Positions 1 to 49,734 of a DNA stretch of 64,000 nucleotides are shown here, one piece after another. A program made the translations under genes and the position numbers. Within the stretch, counting starts at the first letter, position 1. The number at the start of each line of letters is the position of its first letter. Source of the DNA: Flavobacteriales bacterium (GTDB taxonomy: Bacteria > Bacteroidota > Bacteroidia > CAIKAF01); NCBI GenBank assembly GCA_025055575.1, contig JANWWP010000017.1, forward strand, positions 1 to 64,000, in the 5' to 3' direction. The notes under the pieces were generated by a model. The model saw only the letters and a list, made by a program, of their open reading frames with translations, was not told the origin of the DNA and ran no database searches.

Positions 1-133
1 TCCCGGGGCTCCAGGCGCAGACAGGGCTGCAGCTCCAGGCGCGGCAGGGGGTGGCGCGGGCGCCGGCGCTGCAGCGGGGCCCGGGGCTCCGGGGGGGCCC
101 GCCCCCACATTTCAATCAGCTTATCCCCCCTTA

Positions 134-2677
134 TCATCGCAAAAGTTCCTGGCGCAGCAAAGGCGAAATGATGCGCACCGCATCCCGCACCAGCACCCAG
201 GCCTCCCGCACGCCCCGCGCCGTGCCCTGCGCCAGATTTTTCCAGGCGCCCTCCAGCACCACACGGAAAAAATGAAACACCAAAAGCCGCCGGCTCCGGT
301 TCAAAGCCGATAGCAATGCCAACGGCTCGGCAGCACGGCGCCCGCCCCGGTTCAGATAGTCGAGGCAGGCCGCCCGCATCCCCGGATGCCGCATCGTCTG
401 ATACAGCGCATCCGCCAAAATGTTGATGGTGGCATTGGCCCGGTGTTCCCGCCGGATAAAGCGCCGCAAAACCCCTTGAAGGTTTTGGCCTGACAGCTTT
501 TCAGGAGGACAGGCATCCAGCAGGCAGCCCAGGGCCCACACGTCTGTGAGCGTGCCCGTCATGCCCCCGCCTGTCAGCGGATGCCGCATATTCAAGGCAT
601 CTCCCAGCAGGCAGGCCCCTTTCAAACGAAAACGCCGGGCATTAAATCGGTGGTTCGGCATCATTTTAAAATCGCCCTTCTCCAAGGCCGCCTCAAAAGC
701 CGCCTGGAGACCCTCCGGCAGCAAGGGCTTCAAATGCTGGCGCAGATACCTCGTCAATTCCGCGCCCGGCCGGGGGGGCGCATCCGGCGGAAAATCAATC
801 AGAATACGGGTTTCCGTACTGCTGATAGGATACACCAGGCAGGTATGGGGGCCGGCCAGAACCACATGTCCATGGGCCGGGTGCGGCAGAGTCGCGTTCT
901 CCAGGATCAGACCCAAAAAATATCCGGTGGTCACGGGCTTTTCCCCACACACATCCATCCTGAAGCGCGAAAAAGGCCCGTCAGCCAGCACAGTCAGGGG
1001 CGCCTTGAGGACTTGGCTTCCCCCCTCCATGCGCACCCACACCCCTTCCACGGCGCCCGTCTTTGGGTGGGTCAGCAGTTTCTCAGCCTCGGCCGTAATG
1101 CACCGGATGTTGGGATGGGCTTCGGCCATGCGGCGCAGATTTTCCAAAAGCCGCTTGTGGTGAAAAGCCTTTCCCTGGCCACCCTGGGGATAGGCAATCA
1201 CCACATCTTTGTCGTCATGCATCAGAGCGTAGCCCTCAATTGTTTGGGCGTCAATGCCTTGCAAAGCCGCGCCCAAACCTAGTTTTTCCAGCAAGAGCAT
1301 ACCGCCCGGCTGCATCAGTTCGCCAATAATACGTTCCGGCACGCGGGGATTTTTTTCCACCAGCGCCACCCGCCAGCCTTTTTTGGCCAGTGTGAGGGCT
1401 GCTGCCGTACCGGCTAATCCGGCGCCCACCACCAGCACATCCACTGTTGGCCCGGCCTCGGGCGTGGGCTCCTCCGGCAGGCTTTGATGCAGCCAGGCGC
1501 TCAGCCGGGCAGCGCCATCGGTGTCGGTGCGCAGGGCGATGTGGCTCAGCCGCTCGGCCACCATGGCGGCCGAAGGCCGGCCGCTCAGACGGGTCCGCAT
1601 CTGCCGAAGGGCCTTAGAAAACACCTCGCGCACATCGTGCATTCCATGGGTGTCCAACATCATGGCCGCCGCCTGCCCTTTTCGAATTTTCACCTCTTTC
1701 CTGTACACATCGGTGGAGCCAAAAAGTTCGGCCAGGGTGGCAATGGCCATCACTTGCGGTATGGCGCAAAACCTAAAAATATCCGGGTGGCTGAGGCTTT
1801 CCATATATCCCAGACATAGGGGCACGTGGCGCAGGGCATCTGCAATCAAGCCATCCAGGCAGGCCAGTTGGGCGTCTTCCGGCACAGCATTTTGAAAATC
1901 TTCCAGGCGGGATGCAAAGGGTTTCCATAAGGTTTCCGGCCAAAACCGACGCTGGCTTTGGATATCCTCCAGATAGTCGCGGATGATGTTGGTTTTTTGC
2001 AAAAACAATCCCATAGCGTTGGAAGCTTCTTCATTGCGCGCCTCCGAGGGCTTTTCATAACCCGAAATCTCAAAGAGTTGGGAAAGCCCAATACCCACCA
2101 AACCGGCTACGTAGTGACAGTACAGGTCATAATCGGCCAGGCTCACCACCGGCTTCTCCGTGAATTCGGCCATGCCGGCGCCCATCCGCCGCGCAATATC
2201 CAGTATCACACTCTGGTAGGCCGGATTCAAATCTTGCAAAACGCGCAACACCTTGTCATAGTGGTGCACCAGCACCCGATAGTCGGGTTTGTCGCCAATC
2301 CCCTGCAGAATGTTGCTTTCCTCAGGTTTAAGACGGTAAAAGGTGGTCAGCAGGTCTTTTTTCAGGGCGCTGCTCAGTTCCGGATCGTCTTCAATGGTGT
2401 CCAAGGCCCGACACACCAAATAGAAAACGGAGACCGCCTCCCGAAGCCCCTCAGGCAGGTGCATGATCACCACCGCAAAAGATCGGGACACTTTTTTGAG
2501 GGCGTTGTAGCAAAAAGTAAGGTCATCATCGCGCTGCCCGGAGAGCCGCAGGTCTATCCCTGAAGGACTGGCATAGTAGGCCGATTGACGAAGCCGCATT
2601 AAAGCTTTCAGCTCTTCGGGACGTGGGGTGTGGGTCAACAATTCTCTGAGCATTTTTGCCGGCAGTTTGAGGGACAA
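134..2677 (-). CDS. Fused squalene synthase (N-terminal) - squalene epoxidase/monooxygenase (C-terminal), 847 aa; likely start may be internal ATG at 2653
   Basis: N-terminal half: KKVSRSFAVVI, FYLVCRALDTIEDD, YCHYVAGLVGIGLSQLF, NAMGLFLQKTNIIRDYLEDI (both Asp-rich motifs of eukaryotic-type squalene synthase). C-terminal half from about aa 412: VDVLVVGAGLAGTAAAL (FAD GxGxxG), ERIIGELMQPGG, LLGDALNMRHPLTGGGMTGTL (squalene epoxidase). Single uninterrupted ORF. Annotated start is TTG. Confidence 0.93.
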   Translation of the reverse strand: MSLKLPAKMLRELLTHTPRPEELKALMRLRQSAYYASPSGIDLRLSGQRDDDLTFCYNALKKVSRSFAVVIMHLPEGLREAVSVFYLVCRALDTIEDDPELSSALKKDLLTTFYRLKPEESNILQGIGDKPDYRVLVHHYDKVLRVLQDLNPAYQSVILDIARRMGAGMAEFTEKPVVSLADYDLYCHYVAGLVGIGLSQLFEISGYEKPSEARNEEASNAMGLFLQKTNIIRDYLEDIQSQRRFWPETLWKPFASRLEDFQNAVPEDAQLACLDGLIADALRHVPLCLGYMESLSHPDIFRFCAIPQVMAIATLAELFGSTDVYRKEVKIRKGQAAAMMLDTHGMHDVREVFSKALRQMRTRLSGRPSAAMVAERLSHIALRTDTDGAARLSAWLHQSLPEEPTPEAGPTVDVLVVGAGLAGTAAALTLAKKGWRVALVEKNPRVPERIIGELMQPGGMLLLEKLGLGAALQGIDAQTIEGYALMHDDKDVVIAYPQGGQGKAFHHKRLLENLRRMAEAHPNIRCITAEAEKLLTHPKTGAVEGVWVRMEGGSQVLKAPLTVLADGPFSRFRMDVCGEKPVTTGYFLGLILENATLPHPAHGHVVLAGPHTCLVYPISSTETRILIDFPPDAPPRPGAELTRYLRQHLKPLLPEGLQAAFEAALEKGDFKMMPNHRFNARRFRLKGACLLGDALNMRHPLTGGGMTGTLTDVWALGCLLDACPPEKLSGQNLQGVLRRFIRREHRANATINILADALYQTMRHPGMRAACLDYLNRGGRRAAEPLALLSALNRSRRLLVFHFFRVVLEGAWKNLAQGTARGVREAWVLVRDAVRIISPLLRQELLR

Positions 2678-2732
2678 ATATCGGAATTCGTATTAACATT
2701 TCATTAACTTAGCTCATTATTTTGTTAACAAC

Positions 2733-4922
2733 ATGCAGAAGTTTGATTTTTGGCGCTTTGAAAGCGATAATGGACGCCAGCGCTGGCGCTGGACCCCGGA
2801 ATTTGAGGAACGCCTGAGCGGCGATTTACTCCGGGATGTGGCCTGGTGGGTACAGTTGGAACCGGCGTTTCAGAAAACGCGTCAGGCCCATTCTGCCGAC
2901 CTGGGTCTGAGGCCCCCAGTGTTGGAAACCCTTGGCTCCAAAAACCAAGATGTAGAGAGCGCACTGGTGCGTGGGGTCCAATTTTTCCACACATTACAGT
3001 GCGCGGATGGGCACTGGCCCGGCGACTACGGGGGCCCTCATTTTCTTTTGCCCGGTCTTGTGATGGTGTGCCATGCCTGTGGTCATGCCCTCCCCTACCC
3101 TCAAAAAGTGGTTATGGCGGCCTACATGCTCCAACATCAGAACGAGGACGGAGGCTGGGGTTTGCACATCGAATCGCCCTCCACCCTGTTTGGCACCGGA
3201 ATGCAATATGTGGCCCTGCGCCTCCTGGGCATTCCGGCAGAAGATCCACGCCTGCAAAAAGCCCTTCATTGGATCCAGAGCCATGGCGGCATCACAGCCA
3301 TCCCGTCCTGGGGCAAATTTTACCTGGCAATTCTGGGTTTGCTGGACTGGCGGGGGGTGAACCCACTTCTTCCTGAGCTCTGGCTTTTACCCCGGTGGAT
3401 GCCGATCCATCCTTCGCGAATTTGGTGCCATGCGCGCATGGTGTATTTGCCCATGAGTTATGCTTATGGACGGCGCTTCGTATGCGCCCAGGACGCCACT
3501 TTGGAGGCCTTGCGCCAAGAATTGTATCCCCAGGGCTATGACCGCATACGTTGGAATGCCGTGCGCTACGCCTGTTGCCCGGAAGATGTGTACCACAAAC
3601 CCACAGCGGTAATGAAGGTGGCCAACGCACTCATGCGGGGCTTTGAAAAGCTGGGGCTGAAGCGACTCCGGAAAAAAGGCCTGGATTTCGCCTTTCGGTA
3701 CATCTGTGCCGAAGACGTACAAACCCGTTTCATCGACATCGGGCCTGTGAATAAAGTGCTCAACATGCTGTGCGTGTGTATTGAAAAGGGCTCTCAGAGT
3801 CCCGAATTCCAGCGCCACACCGAACGTTTGGACGATTATCTGTGGTGGGCCGAAGACGGTCTCAAAATGAATGGTTACAACGGTTCACAACTTTGGGATA
3901 CCGCTTTTGCAGCCCGGGCTTTGGCCGAGGCTCAGCATCCCGTCGCATCAGAGGCCCTGCGGGCTGCTTTTCGGTATCTGGATTTTGCCCAGGTGAAGGA
4001 GGAAGTTCCAATGCAAAAGGAATTTTTCCGGCACCCCTCGGTGGGCGGTTGGCCCTTTTCCACCCCTGATCACGGCTGGCCCATCACAGATTGCACTTCC
4101 GAAGCCCTGGATGCGGCCTTGGCAATAGCCCGCCTACCGTTTCTCCAGCCTTTTGAGGGCTTGCCCAAGCACCGCCTGCAACTCGCTGCGGACTTGATCC
4201 TTAGTTTCCAGAACCGGGATGGCGGCTGGGCCTCCTACGAATTGACCCGCGGGCCCCGCTGGCTGGAATGGCTCAATCCTTCTGAGGTGTTTTCTGCAAT
4301 TATGATTGACTATTCCTACACGGAATGCTCCTCCTCCTGCATCCAGGCACTCTGTGCTTTCCACCAAGAATTCCCGGAATACCGGTCTTCCGAAATATTG
4401 AAGGCCATCCGCCGGGGTGTGGATTTTATTTTGAGCAAACAAAACGAAGAAGGGCTGTGGTATGGCTCCTGGGGCGTGTGTTTCACCTACGGCACCTGGT
4501 TTGCTTCGCAGGCCCTCTCAGCCGCTTCCGCCCATCTAAATCCGAACGTCCGACGCGCATCCGAAAGCGCCTTAGCCCGCATGGCTGCTGCCTTGGCTTC
4601 GCGCCAGAATCCCGACGGAGGCTGGGGGGAGCACTACACTTCCTGCCTCCGAAGGGAATGGGTGAACCACTCCAGCCAGGTGATTCAAACGGCATGGGCG
4701 GTACTTTCTTTACTAAACACCCCCCACACGCCATTGGACAGGGTCAAACACGGCCTTCGTTTTATCCTGGAAAGTCAGGCACCTCACGGCGATTGGCCCC
4801 AGCAGCAGATTTCCGGTGTGTTCAATAAAACCTGTATGATCACTTACGCCAACTACCGCAATATTTTTCCGCTCTGGGCGCTGGGCAAAGCCCTCCGTAT
4901 CGGCATTCGAAGCGTTTCCTGA
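2733..4922 (+). CDS. Oxidosqualene cyclase, cycloartenol-synthase-like active site
   Basis: SRIWCHARMVYLPMSYAYG, MNGYNGSQLWDTAFA, DHGWPITDCTSEALDAAL, GLWYGSWGVCFTYGTWFA, FNKTCMITYANYRNIFPLWALG, QW-type repeats (QNxDGGW). DCTSE matches the OSC DCTAE motif, not the DxDD of squalene-hopene cyclases. Confidence 0.95.
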   Translation: MQKFDFWRFESDNGRQRWRWTPEFEERLSGDLLRDVAWWVQLEPAFQKTRQAHSADLGLRPPVLETLGSKNQDVESALVRGVQFFHTLQCADGHWPGDYGGPHFLLPGLVMVCHACGHALPYPQKVVMAAYMLQHQNEDGGWGLHIESPSTLFGTGMQYVALRLLGIPAEDPRLQKALHWIQSHGGITAIPSWGKFYLAILGLLDWRGVNPLLPELWLLPRWMPIHPSRIWCHARMVYLPMSYAYGRRFVCAQDATLEALRQELYPQGYDRIRWNAVRYACCPEDVYHKPTAVMKVANALMRGFEKLGLKRLRKKGLDFAFRYICAEDVQTRFIDIGPVNKVLNMLCVCIEKGSQSPEFQRHTERLDDYLWWAEDGLKMNGYNGSQLWDTAFAARALAEAQHPVASEALRAAFRYLDFAQVKEEVPMQKEFFRHPSVGGWPFSTPDHGWPITDCTSEALDAALAIARLPFLQPFEGLPKHRLQLAADLILSFQNRDGGWASYELTRGPRWLEWLNPSEVFSAIMIDYSYTECSSSCIQALCAFHQEFPEYRSSEILKAIRRGVDFILSKQNEEGLWYGSWGVCFTYGTWFASQALSAASAHLNPNVRRASESALARMAAALASRQNPDGGWGEHYTSCLRREWVNHSSQVIQTAWAVLSLLNTPHTPLDRVKHGLRFILESQAPHGDWPQQQISGVFNKTCMITYANYRNIFPLWALGKALRIGIRSVS

Positions 4923-4992: not shown

Positions 4993-5634
4993 CTATTTCC
5001 GGCCAAAATCTGCCGGGATTTCACCCCAGGCCGCCGTATCCCATTTTAGAAGTGGATTGCGCCAGTGGTGGCGTTGCAGCCACTCTTCCGCTTTTTGAAT
5101 CAAGTCATGGACGGGCGAACCGGTAGCTGGGGCGGCCTTGCGCGTATTGGCTTTTTTCTTACGGACCCAGGCCAGTGCTGTCTGACTGTCGGAATACACC
5201 GGGAGGTCCCAAAATCCATGTTTCTGACAGTACGCCAAAGCGTGCACAAGGGCCAGAAATTCTACAATATTGTTGGTGGCATGCGGAAAAGGCCCTCCAT
5301 GAAAAAGCAGTTGACCGTCCTTTAGATTCACCCCGCGGTATTCAGCCGCACCGGTCACCATGTTACAGGCGCCATCCACCGCGATGCCAAGGCCGGGACT
5401 ATTTGCTGTTGGGACGGCTATTGATGGGGTTTTCTCGAGCCGCTTTTGCCTAGATTTTGATGGCGGACCCGCCTTCCAGGCTTCTTCCGCTTCTTCACGA
5501 CTGGGATAACCTTTGTATAAAGCCCCAGGAAACCCTTTGACCGAATTTTCTGCTTCTTTCCACGTGGTGAACACTCCAGTCTGCCGACCTTTCCATACTA
5601 CGTAAAAGCTTTTGCCACTTGCGCCGGAAGGCAT
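4993..5634 (-). CDS. rnhA: Ribonuclease H with N-terminal RNase H1 hybrid-binding (caulimovirus VI-like) domain
   Basis: FYVVWKGRQTGVFTTWKEAENSVKGFPGALYKGYPSREEAEEAW followed by AVDGACN...NNIVEFLALVHAL...VYSDSQTALAW. Confidence 0.88.
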   Translation of the reverse strand: MPSGASGKSFYVVWKGRQTGVFTTWKEAENSVKGFPGALYKGYPSREEAEEAWKAGPPSKSRQKRLEKTPSIAVPTANSPGLGIAVDGACNMVTGAAEYRGVNLKDGQLLFHGGPFPHATNNIVEFLALVHALAYCQKHGFWDLPVYSDSQTALAWVRKKKANTRKAAPATGSPVHDLIQKAEEWLQRHHWRNPLLKWDTAAWGEIPADFGRK

Positions 5635-6449
5635 TAATTAGAACGGTTGGAGTCTGCTAATTTTTTCACATAAATATTTCCCGCGGCCGTTTCAGCCACT
5701 TTTTTTGGAAGGTAACGGGCCAGGGCTGCTCCCATTTTGTTCACCAGGCCGGGCACCACTTCTGTTTTGCCGGCCAACATGGCTTTTATGGCAACACGTG
5801 CCACGGCTTCCGGGGTCATGCCCACCGCATCGGACATTTTCCTTAAAGGCTCCATACCGGCTCTGTCAATAAAATTAGTTTTTGTGGCGCCCGGACTCAC
5901 GCAAGTAACACTCACGCGCAGCCGCTGACGTTGACATTCCTGGCGGAGCCCTCGCGACATCTGTACCATGAAAGCCTTGGAGGCTGCATACACCGACATC
6001 GTGGGCAGCGCCTGATACGCCGTGCTGCTGCTGATATTCAGAATGTAGGAAGGCCCATTCTGATGAAGAATCGGAAGAAAGGCATGACTGAGGATGAGCG
6101 GGGCCTGCACATTCACGTGCAACATACGCAATTGCTCCTCCAGGGGCAGGGTCTGAAACCAACCCCACATGCCGTAGCCGGCATTGTTCACCAAAATCTT
6201 CAATTCTGAAGCGAAGCGATCCCGAGCGTAATCAACTAATGACTGAACCTGGGATGGGATCGATAAATCCGCTGGAAACACATCAGCTTGCACAGAATAC
6301 TCCTTGCGGATGGCTTCTGCCGCCGATTCCAGCTCAGCCAGGCTGCGCGCCGATAATAACAGGTCGTAGCCGCGCGTGGCCAAACCGCGGGCCAAGGCCA
6401 GGCCAATACCTTTGGAAGCGCCGGTAACCAGCGCCCTGGGTCGTTTCAC
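5634..6449 (-). CDS. Short-chain dehydrogenase/reductase (SDR); GTG start overlaps the stop of the upstream gene
   Basis: VTGASKGIGLALARGL, NNAGYGMWG, ISSSTAYQALPTMSVYAASKAF (YxxxK). Confidence 0.9.
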   Translation of the reverse strand: MKRPRALVTGASKGIGLALARGLATRGYDLLLSARSLAELESAAEAIRKEYSVQADVFPADLSIPSQVQSLVDYARDRFASELKILVNNAGYGMWGWFQTLPLEEQLRMLHVNVQAPLILSHAFLPILHQNGPSYILNISSSTAYQALPTMSVYAASKAFMVQMSRGLRQECQRQRLRVSVTCVSPGATKTNFIDRAGMEPLRKMSDAVGMTPEAVARVAIKAMLAGKTEVVPGLVNKMGAALARYLPKKVAETAAGNIYVKKLADSNRSN

Positions 6450-7261
6450 TTTACAAACTTATAAAGGTACTGATAGAGTTTCGGTCGGGCGTTTTCTTTT
6501 CTTGGCTTGTATTTGCCGGTAACGAAAGGAATGTACATCACCCGGCGTCGGCTCTCCTCACCTGTGACAGAGGACTTTTCCACACGATGCCAAAGGCGGC
6601 CGTCGTGCACTGTGAGGTCCCCGGCTTGAATGTCCAGCCCCACTTCCTCGGGATCAGGGGTATGACTGATAAAGTATTTTTTTCTGAATAAAGTGCTCCA
6701 GGCCGATTGGTTGTGGGTGCCGGGAATCACCCTGAGCCCCCCGCGGGCAGCCGGGTAATCATCAAAATGCAGGCCCACGTTCAGCATGGGCATTAGTTTT
6801 TTAAAGTAAAAGACATCGCGCAGGGCATCGGTGTGCCAACCCAAACGACTGTAGCCGCTCTTGTCGCAGTTAACATAATGGTTGAACACAGCGCCGTCTT
6901 TTTCCATTACTCCAATGCGACAATCCTGAGGATCGCAATTCAATAAGGGAAAAAGGGCCTCCAGCCTTTTGTCAGAAAGTATTTTGGCCACTTCCTGACT
7001 GTATAAGGATGTGAAAGCCATTCTTTGCAGCAGGGGCTTCCGGTCAATATCCAAACCAAATTTCAGAGGCACTCCCCGAACCCTCAATATTTCGTTTTTT
7101 AAAATATATTCCTGCACTTGGCGCATATCTTCCAGCACCGCTTGTACTTTTTCCCTGGAAATGAAACCTCTGAATTGCAGAAACCCATTTTCCTCAAAAA
7201 AATTCAGTTGCTCCTCGGTGAGCCTCTCTTCCAAATAAAAGATGACTTTATTCACCCGCAT
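6446..7261 (-). CDS. Phytanoyl-CoA dioxygenase (PhyH) family Fe(II)/2OG oxygenase
   Basis: GWHTDALRD (HxD) ... GDLTVHDGRLWHRVEKS (distal His), RGGLRVIPGTHNQS. Confidence 0.82.
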   Translation of the reverse strand: MRVNKVIFYLEERLTEEQLNFFEENGFLQFRGFISREKVQAVLEDMRQVQEYILKNEILRVRGVPLKFGLDIDRKPLLQRMAFTSLYSQEVAKILSDKRLEALFPLLNCDPQDCRIGVMEKDGAVFNHYVNCDKSGYSRLGWHTDALRDVFYFKKLMPMLNVGLHFDDYPAARGGLRVIPGTHNQSAWSTLFRKKYFISHTPDPEEVGLDIQAGDLTVHDGRLWHRVEKSSVTGEESRRRVMYIPFVTGKYKPRKENARPKLYQYLYKFVK

Positions 7262-7325: not shown

Positions 7326-7351
7326 GCAAAAAATCCCCTAAAAAGGGGATT
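7326..7351 (-). terminator. Hairpin terminator downstream of the YwqK-like repeat gene
   Basis: Minus strand AATCCCC-loop-GGGGATT followed by T run, right after the stop of 7351..9612. Confidence 0.75.
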
Positions 7352-9612
7352 CAAGGCACCCCCATTTGCTTTTCGGTGCGCACTTTGCCATTTTTATCAT
7401 AAAACAGCCACTTCCCCGTTTTGACGCCCATGTTGTAAGTGCCTTTCACCTGTAATTTCCCGTTGGGATAGTAACGCACCATGTCCCCATCCATCACATC
7501 CCCATTGTATTGAATCCTTGAAGCCAGGGAACCATGAGGATACCAGGCTTCCCATATCCCATATTTTTTCCCGTTGCGATAGAGGCCACGGGTGCTCATT
7601 TGACCCGTCTCATAATATTCGATGGAAAGCCCGTCCATAACTCCTGCTTTATAATAAGTTTCATCCTTCACATGCCCGTTTTCATACCAGTGAATCCAGC
7701 GCCCTTCGGGCGTTCCCAACCGATATTGCACCTGGTATCGGGGTTTTCCGTCGGGATAGTAGCCTTTCCAAAGCCCGTCCATGAGGCCTTTTTTAAAAGT
7801 CCCTTGATCTTCCACTTGCCCGTTGGGATAAAATGAAATAAAAGGCCCCTCCTCCTTCCCTTCCAAAAATTGCCCGCGGTGTTCTTCCTGGCCGTTTTCG
7901 AAATAATGGACCCAGGGGCCCTCTTTCTTATCGTTCCTGAAGTACCCTTTTTTCCAAAGCGTGCCCGTGGAATCATAGTATATCCACAGCGAATCCTTGA
8001 GGTCGTTCTTGTAATAGCCAATACTCTGCAGGATGCCGGATGGATAAAATTGTTTCCATACGCCGTGGCGCTTATCTCTTACAAAAGTGCCCGTCATATC
8101 CACCTGACCGTTGGGAAAATACCAGGTCCAGAGGCCATGACGCAAACTGTCGAGGTAGGAGAATTCGCCGGAAGGCCGGCCGTTCCTGTAAAAGCTGCGC
8201 CACAGCCCGTGCGGTTTATCCTGAAAATAACGGGCTTCTTCTGCCAGCTGGCCATTGTCATGATACAGGAGCCAAAGGCCTTCTTTTTTGCCGTTTACCC
8301 GGCGCCCACTGAGTTTTATCTGACCGTTTTCGAACCAGACCCATGTACTGTCGTTGTCATGATTTACCACTGAACGTCGGGCCCCGTTTTCATAATAATA
8401 TAACCAACGCCCCATGGGCTTGTCCTCCCAATAATGTTCTTCTGAGCGCAGAACGCCGTTCTCAAACCAGGTGCGGGCGACGCCATGTTTGCGACCTTCC
8501 TGGAAAGGCGTTTCCAGTTCCAATTGGCCGTTTTTATACCACGCCCTTGCCACACCGTGCTTTTGTCCTTTAGCATTATAGGGCACTTCTTCTGTCAATT
8601 GCCCTTCCGGGCTAAAGGATTTCCAAAGACCCTGTCGTATCGAATCAACGGTCATTCGGCCCTCCAACATCAACTTTCCTGTTGGATAAAATTCCCGGTA
8701 ACTTCCGGTATTGGCATCGAATTCCTTGAGAACCTGGCCCTCGGGAGCAAATTCCTGGCACAGGCCTTTGGGCCTGCACCCGGCGTCGAATGAACATGAG
8801 AAAGCCACCTTAGCGCCTGGATGATAGCGCGCGCAGGGCCCATCACAAGGCCGCCCGGCGCTATAATGACACACTTCCTTTTTTTTGCCGTTCGGGAAAA
8901 ATTTTTCCCAGAGCCCTTCTTCCAATCCGTGCACAAAGGTCCCCCGTGCCAGCACTTTTCCGCCCACGCCCAATTCCGTGAATGTGCCGTGGTACAAACC
9001 ATCGCTATCCATATCCGCCTCAATCTGAAGGCTGCCATCCGGATAAAAGATCTGTTTCAGCCCCCGATCGTAGTTTTCCACTTTGCGCACGGCCCCGTCC
9101 GGATAATATTCTATCCATTTCCCCGCTCTCTTTCCCTCCCGATAGCGGCCTTCTGAATTTTGATTTCCAGACTCATACCATGTGCGAAAAGGGCCATGCA
9201 ATTGTCCATTTCTGTAAAAAAAACGGCTTTCGATCCGTCCGTTTTTGAAGTAGCTGACCATAGGCCCGTTTTTGATACCTTTTCGAAACTTTTGCACCGA
9301 CTTTAAAGTGCCATCCAGGCGATACTCTCTCCACACCCCATGGGGTTTTTCGTTCAACAAAGGACCGGCCATGTGCACCGTGCCATCCGGATACAAAATT
9401 TTCTGGAAACCCCGGTCATAGTCTGTTTCAGCCACTTTGGCCCCGTCGGAAGCATAGATATGCCAAAGGCCCACCTTTTTTCCATCTTTCATGGGGCCTT
9501 CCGCACGGCGCCCCGTTTCGGCCTGAAGGGGGGCCTTGGACACCTCCTGCTGGGCCGTCAGACAGCCCGATAGGATCCACAGCGCAGCGAAAAAAAAAGT
9601 CTTTCGAATCAA
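7351..9612 (-). CDS. Secreted/lipoprotein toxin-antitoxin YwqK / MORN-like repeat protein
   Basis: Signal peptide with Cys (LWILSGCLTAQQ) and roughly 30 tandem units of about 23 aa of form G.W..Y..NG......Y..G...G. Confidence 0.85.
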   Translation of the reverse strand: MIRKTFFFAALWILSGCLTAQQEVSKAPLQAETGRRAEGPMKDGKKVGLWHIYASDGAKVAETDYDRGFQKILYPDGTVHMAGPLLNEKPHGVWREYRLDGTLKSVQKFRKGIKNGPMVSYFKNGRIESRFFYRNGQLHGPFRTWYESGNQNSEGRYREGKRAGKWIEYYPDGAVRKVENYDRGLKQIFYPDGSLQIEADMDSDGLYHGTFTELGVGGKVLARGTFVHGLEEGLWEKFFPNGKKKEVCHYSAGRPCDGPCARYHPGAKVAFSCSFDAGCRPKGLCQEFAPEGQVLKEFDANTGSYREFYPTGKLMLEGRMTVDSIRQGLWKSFSPEGQLTEEVPYNAKGQKHGVARAWYKNGQLELETPFQEGRKHGVARTWFENGVLRSEEHYWEDKPMGRWLYYYENGARRSVVNHDNDSTWVWFENGQIKLSGRRVNGKKEGLWLLYHDNGQLAEEARYFQDKPHGLWRSFYRNGRPSGEFSYLDSLRHGLWTWYFPNGQVDMTGTFVRDKRHGVWKQFYPSGILQSIGYYKNDLKDSLWIYYDSTGTLWKKGYFRNDKKEGPWVHYFENGQEEHRGQFLEGKEEGPFISFYPNGQVEDQGTFKKGLMDGLWKGYYPDGKPRYQVQYRLGTPEGRWIHWYENGHVKDETYYKAGVMDGLSIEYYETGQMSTRGLYRNGKKYGIWEAWYPHGSLASRIQYNGDVMDGDMVRYYPNGKLQVKGTYNMGVKTGKWLFYDKNGKVRTEKQMGVP

Positions 9613-48593: not shown

Positions 48594-49616
48594 TTATGAA
48601 TAATCCGAAAGTTTTTTGGGTTTCAAAAAGGCAAAAGCGGTTTGGAGCCCTTTGATTTGTGATTTTGTAAAGACGTCCAGGGCTTTAGCATCTTGGGCCG
48701 CATATTTTAAAAAGGCCGAAGCTTGACCGTAGATGGCCGGAAGCGGAGATTGAGATATCAAAAAGTAACCGTCAAGAAAATTTTTTATGCCACCGGATAC
48801 AATAATGTTCCGGGTTTGGATGGGAAACGCCTGTTTTTTATAAATTTTTTGCAGCATGGCCATCATTTCCACGGCCGAATGTCCCACCAGCGCTAGCGGA
48901 GCCAGGCCCTCTGCATCAGGATTCCGATGGTTTTCGAGACGCGTAAAATTTGTGCCGCCGAAGCTTCCAAAGTCCACAGCCAGCAAAGGAAGCCGAAGCA
49001 AAGCCTCCAGCGAGGCCGGCCCAAATCCCTGACCCACTTCTTTCACAATGATGGGGAAGGTGGCATGGTTCAGACATTCCTGAATGACATCCAAGGGTCT
49101 GCGGCCGAAGCGATCGCCCTCTGGCTGCATCAATTCCTGAAGAGGATTCACGTGAATAATGAGACCATCTGCCCCCAAACTGCTGACCAAGTCCTCTACG
49201 ATTTGCCACTCACTCTTTTGTAAAATGCGTTCAATTTGAGCGATGCCCAAATTCGCAAAAAAAGGCACATCCGGACCCAACACCGGACGCAGATTGAAAT
49301 CTGCCCATCGCGACCGGCTGTGCAGCAGGGGCCGGCAGGACCCCAGGCCCATGCCCAAACCATAGCGGGCACACACCTCCGCCAAGCGTTGGTTGATGGT
49401 GTAAGCCGCCTCCGTGCCGCCGGTCATACTGCTAATCCAAATCGGGTACTGCATTTCCTTATTTCCGAGCCGCACCGGAAGGGTGGCAGATTCCTCAGGG
49501 TGGGGTGCCAGCATAGGCTCATAAAAGAAACGGGAATCCGCTTCTGAGACGCTCACCTGGGATTCAAAAGCCAGCCGAATGTGATCGGATTTTCGGATAT
49601 CCAGTTCTTCTTTCAA
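48594..49616 (-). CDS. fni: Type 2 isopentenyl-diphosphate delta-isomerase
   Basis: RKSDHIRLAFESQV, ISSMTGGTEAAYTINQRLAEVCARYGLGMGLGSCR, IVKEVGQGFG, AVDFGSFGGTNFTRLE; ORF track start 49625 (TTG) lies inside a TACATTTG box. Confidence 0.93.
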   Translation of the reverse strand: MKEELDIRKSDHIRLAFESQVSVSEADSRFFYEPMLAPHPEESATLPVRLGNKEMQYPIWISSMTGGTEAAYTINQRLAEVCARYGLGMGLGSCRPLLHSRSRWADFNLRPVLGPDVPFFANLGIAQIERILQKSEWQIVEDLVSSLGADGLIIHVNPLQELMQPEGDRFGRRPLDVIQECLNHATFPIIVKEVGQGFGPASLEALLRLPLLAVDFGSFGGTNFTRLENHRNPDAEGLAPLALVGHSAVEMMAMLQKIYKKQAFPIQTRNIIVSGGIKNFLDGYFLISQSPLPAIYGQASAFLKYAAQDAKALDVFTKSQIKGLQTAFAFLKPKKLSDYS

Positions 49617-49622
49617 GGCCGG

Positions 49623-49630
49623 CAAATGTA
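49623..49630 (-). promoter_or_regulatory. -7 box (minus TACATTTG) for the mevalonate operon/idi2
   Basis: CAAATGTA on + strand; next in-frame TTG (49616) is 6 nt downstream. Confidence 0.55.
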
Positions 49631-49734
49631 CAAAAGTTAATGGAATGTTAATGCCGGAGTTTTAAAAATGCGCTTCTTTGGTTTGGATCCACTCGGCAAA
49701 ACAAATGATATGTGAAACGCCCTTTGAAAAACAA

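Follow-up and report, generated by a model that had tools for sequence, protein, structure and literature searches.

The window, the whole 64,000-nucleotide stretch that was analysed, is predicted to encode, with two genes, a bacterial route that leads from farnesyl diphosphate (FPP) to cycloartenol. From the sequence, we put the probability of this reading at roughly 80%. The N-terminal half of a fused squalene synthase-squalene epoxidase (SQS-SQLE) would use NADPH to condense two FPP into squalene, with presqualene diphosphate as intermediate; the C-terminal FAD enzyme would form 2,3-oxidosqualene from squalene and O2; and a divergently transcribed oxidosqualene cyclase (OSC) would produce cycloartenol. 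The pathway probably ends at cycloartenol, as we recognised no enzyme that would remove the C-14 or C-4 methyl groups. All three domains are present, in keeping with the original prediction that two genes cover three steps from FPP. The locus is real and predicted to be functional, and it represents a variant of an already known bacterial pathway. It offers a minimal, testable route of two proteins to a sterol, in which two consecutive enzymes are naturally joined.

The fused gene and its locus

The window corresponds to bases 1-64000 of the 83,763-base contig C68, from a 2.44-Mb genome that is 99.8% complete and 0.1% contaminated; its predicted assignment to the Bacteroidota was borne out. 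The window starts at contig base 1 and the fused gene sits at the contig edge. This position could point to an assembly error or a chimeric contig, which we consider exceedingly improbable: in an independent congener genome (G015), the two enzymes are likewise fused in frame and the OSC is divergent, and the cassette's neighbours on the contig are bacterial, with T9SS sorting tails. The eukaryotic or chimeric contig named at the outset as a potential refutation is thereby excluded. At the contig end, window positions 1-130 consist of a GC-rich repeat coding Ala/Gly/Pro, probably the cause of the assembly break there. The cassette is adjoined by a gene for a 753-aa protein composed almost entirely of MORN_2 repeats (7351-9612, -).

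The expected arrangement of an SQS-SQLE fusion and a divergent OSC was confirmed by domain matches and by two ORFs, both open end to end: 134-2677 (-), which encodes 847 aa from a TTG, and that of the OSC (Table 1). The SQS part of the former matches SQS_PSY/TIGR01559, squalene synthase, at 388.7 bits, exceeding the curated TIGR01559 cut-off of 286.75, and contains both Asp-rich motifs. Downstream of this match lies a squalene epoxidase domain (PF08491; 241.7 bits, cut-off 20.1). Assignment as a squalene epoxidase was based on the FAD Rossmann motif and an SE domain with GD..NMRHPLTGGGMT, found by PF08491 and by alignment to human SQLE. The closest solved structures for the two halves are human SQS and human SQLE. 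In the SQS domain, D80, D84, D219, D223, Y171 and F288 are conserved, and all 14 residues checked are as in the human enzyme, including its substrate and Mg motifs. An AlphaFold model of the fusion, calculated for two sequences, had a mean pLDDT of 39 and was discarded. A joint SQS and SQLE alignment of 46 rows was apparently misaligned and was left out of the results.

ATG 2653 (MLREL...) is a more likely start of the fusion than TTG 2677, as it aligns with MVREL in the congener and with MIKDI/MLKDL in the family's separate SQS proteins. With this start, the gap to the OSC is 79 bp; the original prediction was correct as to the divergent layout but probably not as to the length of the gap, given as about 55 bp.

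In the literature searched, no previous description of a natural SQS-SQLE fusion came up. Fused SMO/OSC homologs exist in metagenomes (PMC10070321); these likewise join neighbouring sterol-pathway enzymes in uncultured bacteria, but link epoxidase to cyclase, whereas the fusion in the window links synthase to epoxidase. Conceivably, synthase and epoxidase work as one natural bifunctional enzyme in which squalene would pass from the former to the latter without release, so that the two-protein pathway would lack a pool of free squalene; we regard this as tentative and somewhat doubtful.

Table 1. Coordinates of the predicted sterol cassette in the window.
Feature	Position	Strand	Details
Fused squalene synthase-squalene epoxidase	137..2653	-	839 aa from preferred ATG; stop at 134-136
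Squalene synthase domain	1538..2653	-	aa 1-372; DTIEDD at aa 85, DYLED at aa 226
Linker between enzymes	1445..1537	-	aa 373-403; without transmembrane segment; congener linker is of another length and sequence
Squalene epoxidase (monooxygenase) domain	137..1444	-	aa 404-839; GAGLAG FAD motif at aa 408, GDALNMRHPLTGGGMT at aa 684
Intergenic region	2654..2732		79 bp
Conserved block ATTAAC-N5-ATTAACTTAGCT, candidate regulator/promoter site	2692..2714	+	
Oxidosqualene cyclase, predicted cycloartenol synthase	2733..4922	+	729 aa; Y381/H449/I453, human numbering

The cyclase and its predicted product

The OSC matches both SQHop_cyclase domains. It was assigned as an OSC on exceeding the TIGR01787 cut-off (655.9 bits versus 322.7) and on the presence of D455-C456 rather than the DxDD of hopene cyclases; against the hopene cyclase model it scored 273.7 bits, below the cut-off of 431.1. 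Human lanosterol synthase is its best match among solved structures, and 13 of 13 non-signature residues checked are the same in both, including D455, C456, C533, H232 and Y503. From the human enzyme, we take D455 to be the OSC acid and C456 and C533 its hydrogen-bond cysteines. The cation-stabilising aromatics checked are all conserved. The score against TIGR03463, a 2,3-oxidosqualene cyclase model, was 696.2 bits and missed the cut-off of 851. This cut-off is too narrow for these cyclases, as the Fluviicola-like cyclase of genome G323 (657.9 bits) and every other cyclase tested also missed it.

Lanosterol and cycloartenol synthases were told apart at positions 381, 449 and 453. The window, its congener and all Bacteroidota cyclases found but two (Y/Q/I) have Y/H/I, the signature of cycloartenol synthases. 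Methanotroph cyclases have mostly Y/N/V or Y/Q/V, the exception being two Methylothermaceae MAGs with Y/H/I. In the bacteria tested by Wei et al. 2016, I453 versus V453 matched cycloartenol versus lanosterol (PMC4919349). By this signature, the enzyme is most likely a cycloartenol synthase, under a residue-to-product rule that was drawn from few bacterial products, all from other genera.

An unmodified end product fits what is known of Fluviicola taffensis, also of the Bacteroidota, in which GC-MS identified cycloartenol as the only sterol (PMC4919349). Like the window, F. taffensis has an SE (Fluta_3221) and a cycloartenol-type OSC (Fluta_3214) without downstream sterol genes. The SE-to-OSC spacing in G323, whose cyclase is Y/H/I, equals that of the Fluta_3221/Fluta_3214 pair. 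In G323, separate SQS, SQLE and OSC genes lie in one co-directional run of isoprenoid genes, whereas in the window the first two are fused and the OSC is divergent. The G323 run (locus L048, 818-11732) comprises SQS, SQLE, mevalonate-pathway-type genes, a prenyl synthase and OSC on one strand, and looks like a complete operon from mevalonate to sterol in a member of the Bacteroidota. Of the outcomes first envisaged, an unmodified 4,4,14-trimethyl sterol thus agrees with both the residue signature and the F. taffensis comparison. Counting against the prediction, both genes are present in the myxobacterium Corallococcus coralloides, in which no sterol was produced (PMC4919349).

The original prediction noted that the 64 kb lack CYP51 and a Rieske-type C-4 demethylase, and this absence holds for the whole genome. 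No P450 was found in the 99.8% complete genome, using a search whose control was positive in 7 genomes; thus, there is no CYP51. The two Rieske proteins are a small one of 145 aa and a ring-hydroxylating oxygenase on C62; genome-wide, none reached SdmA grade, the best scoring 26 bits against a cut-off of 600. Of the other enzymes proposed for this search, an FPP-type synthase has a candidate: two polyprenyl synthases lie on other contigs, one being the closest among these to FPP-type short-chain enzymes. The ERG24-type reductase profile had no match in the genome, but its control was silent everywhere too. Seven genes of the FA_hydroxylase (fatty-acid/sterol-desaturase) family (L131-L137) occur on C13, C19, C22, C31, C59 and C72. 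In the five scanned, the best match was ornithine-lipid hydroxylase, below its cut-off, and neither these nor the ring-hydroxylating Rieske oxygenase included an equivalog of a known sterol enzyme. The genome has one cyclase and no squalene-hopene cyclase; cycloartenol, bound for the membrane, would therefore be the sole cyclic triterpenoid of the cell.

Two alternatives concern the product. The same pathway might yield lanosterol, parkeol or a mixture if residues outside the signature matter on a divergent branch, and the internal branch of the window genus within the Bacteroidota cyclases is indeed long, at 1.2-1.4 changes per column. We judge this quite unlikely, given that window and congener both have cycloartenol-type residues at the three signature positions and that V453 is the mark of lanosterol in the bacteria tested (PMC4919349). 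A tailoring route of an unrecognised kind is possible, in which unlinked enzymes would modify cycloartenol. Some bacteria alter sterols without known enzymes (PMC4919349), and candidates are at hand in the FA_hydroxylase-family genes, the C62 oxygenase, an SDR (5634-6449) and a PhyH dioxygenase (6446-7261). However, neither the SDR, the PhyH nor other tailoring genes recur beside the trio in other Bacteroidota, where FPP synthase and mevalonate genes do; together with the low Rieske score and the lack of a P450, this makes tailoring unlikely. Cycloartenol as the unmodified end product remains our preferred reading.

Distribution of the cassette and origin of the fusion

The order in the genome set used consists of one family of 16 genomes, four of which are public MAGs named Flavobacteriales or Bacteroidia. 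OSC was found in 10 of the 16; one genus of six genomes lacks both OSC and SQS-SQLE. The trait is rare: only one genome in the class sample (396 genomes) has an OSC outside the family, and in a 399-genome sample of the phylum the fusion protein had a strong match in the window genome alone. A family-alignment scan for OSC across 85,488 species genomes yielded 80 named loci; a single-sequence OSC scan of genome contigs gave no match.

The divergent layout is not special to the window genome. Apart from the two fused loci, 18 of those examined have the SQS-SQLE pair and OSC in head-to-head orientation with 52-248 bp between them: six from the family, 11 named Bacteroidota and one labelled Chlorobiota. 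The survey of Bacteroidota MAGs first suggested for this pair was thus positive. For example, DDEZ01000010.1, JANWXI010000056.1 and JAHCHW010000002.1 (L057, L081 and L056; uncultured Bacteroidota) have the same three enzymes, orientation and Y/H/I residues, but separate SQS and SQLE genes. FPP-synthase-like genes lie near 15 loci and mevalonate-type genes near a few; no recurring tailoring neighbours were found beside the surveyed trio loci. Methylococcales operons also place OSC and SQLE side by side; unlike the window, they run co-directionally from OSC to SQLE, are of the lanosterol type (V453) and in some cases have an sdmA-type Rieske gene nearby. A sterol cassette of conserved gene order scattered through uncultured Bacteroidota bears on the source of bacterial sterols and on the reading of sterane fossils as eukaryotic.

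The fusion itself was found only in the window and G015, its one congener (61% identical), with SQS and SQLE separate in 25 other loci. The cassette predates the fusion, as the divergent trio is widespread and the fusion limited to these two. In G002 and G004, the SQS stop is followed by one codon and the SQLE start, all in the same frame, so that loss of one stop would fuse the pair. The fusion probably arose in this way inside the Bacteroidota, from an SQS-SQLE gene pair through loss of the intervening stop. Long open frames had suggested G002, G003 and G004 as fused; a stop between the genes in each ruled this out.

As originally proposed, separate trees were built for SQS, SQLE and OSC. 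For all three proteins, window and G015 were joined with full support on a long branch; the genus was not firmly placed among the Bacteroidota. Direct acquisition of the cassette from a eukaryote by the window lineage, an idea raised initially, could draw on an SQS that is eukaryote-like rather than HpnCDE, on a GC3 of 0.68 in the fusion versus 0.57 ± 0.04 in 23 other window genes, and on the loose position of the genus relative to the bacterial cyclases once human and plant, the only two eukaryotic cyclases in the tree, were added (80/92). Nevertheless, the idea is weakened by the unfused trio across the Bacteroidota: the 18 other loci, nearly all of this phylum, share the three genes and their divergent arrangement. 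In addition, the window cyclase is closest to Bacteroidota cyclases (823 bits versus 656 bits to human), and family monophyly was not rejected (p-AU 0.08). A recent transfer from eukaryotes is unlikely, and direct acquisition by this lineage very improbable. Because gene order is conserved across the phylum, we favour a bacterial cassette, either inherited or exchanged among bacteria, over one recently acquired from a eukaryote.

Other loci show irregular groupings. L054 and L064, from gammaproteobacterial Methylothermaceae MAGs, have a Y/H/I cyclase and a divergent SQLE, and in a tree without eukaryotes their cyclases group with Bacteroidota, away from other methanotrophs; this reflects either transfer or mis-binning. 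For L107 and L109, a Chlorobiota-labelled MAG with the full divergent cassette, possibly mislabelled, groups with a Bacteroidales MAG, and an Akkermansiaceae MAG cyclase groups with a Chitinophagales cyclase.

The intergenic region

The shared regulatory region that had been proposed between the genes received modest support from a conserved 13-bp block. Specifically, CATTAACTTAGCT (2702-2714) is identical in the congener intergenic region, and a second ATTAAC lies 11 bp upstream of it in both. A shared 13-mer occurred in 2 of 2000 dinucleotide-shuffled pairs. ATTAAC-N5-ATTAAC has three copies in the genome, and the reversed control none. We consider the block a lead, a candidate shared operator through which the two genes might be co-regulated. 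A search of 22 intergenic regions for TAnnTTTG, the promoter motif of Bacteroidota, turned up no clear signal (9 observed versus 5.4 expected). The ATTAAC repeat of the intergenic region recurs almost unchanged, as ATTAACATTCCATTAAC, at window 49636-49652 (-), just upstream of an uncharacterised ORF (48594-49625, -), and is followed by a TACATTTG box; this copy possibly marks the same regulator or promoter class.
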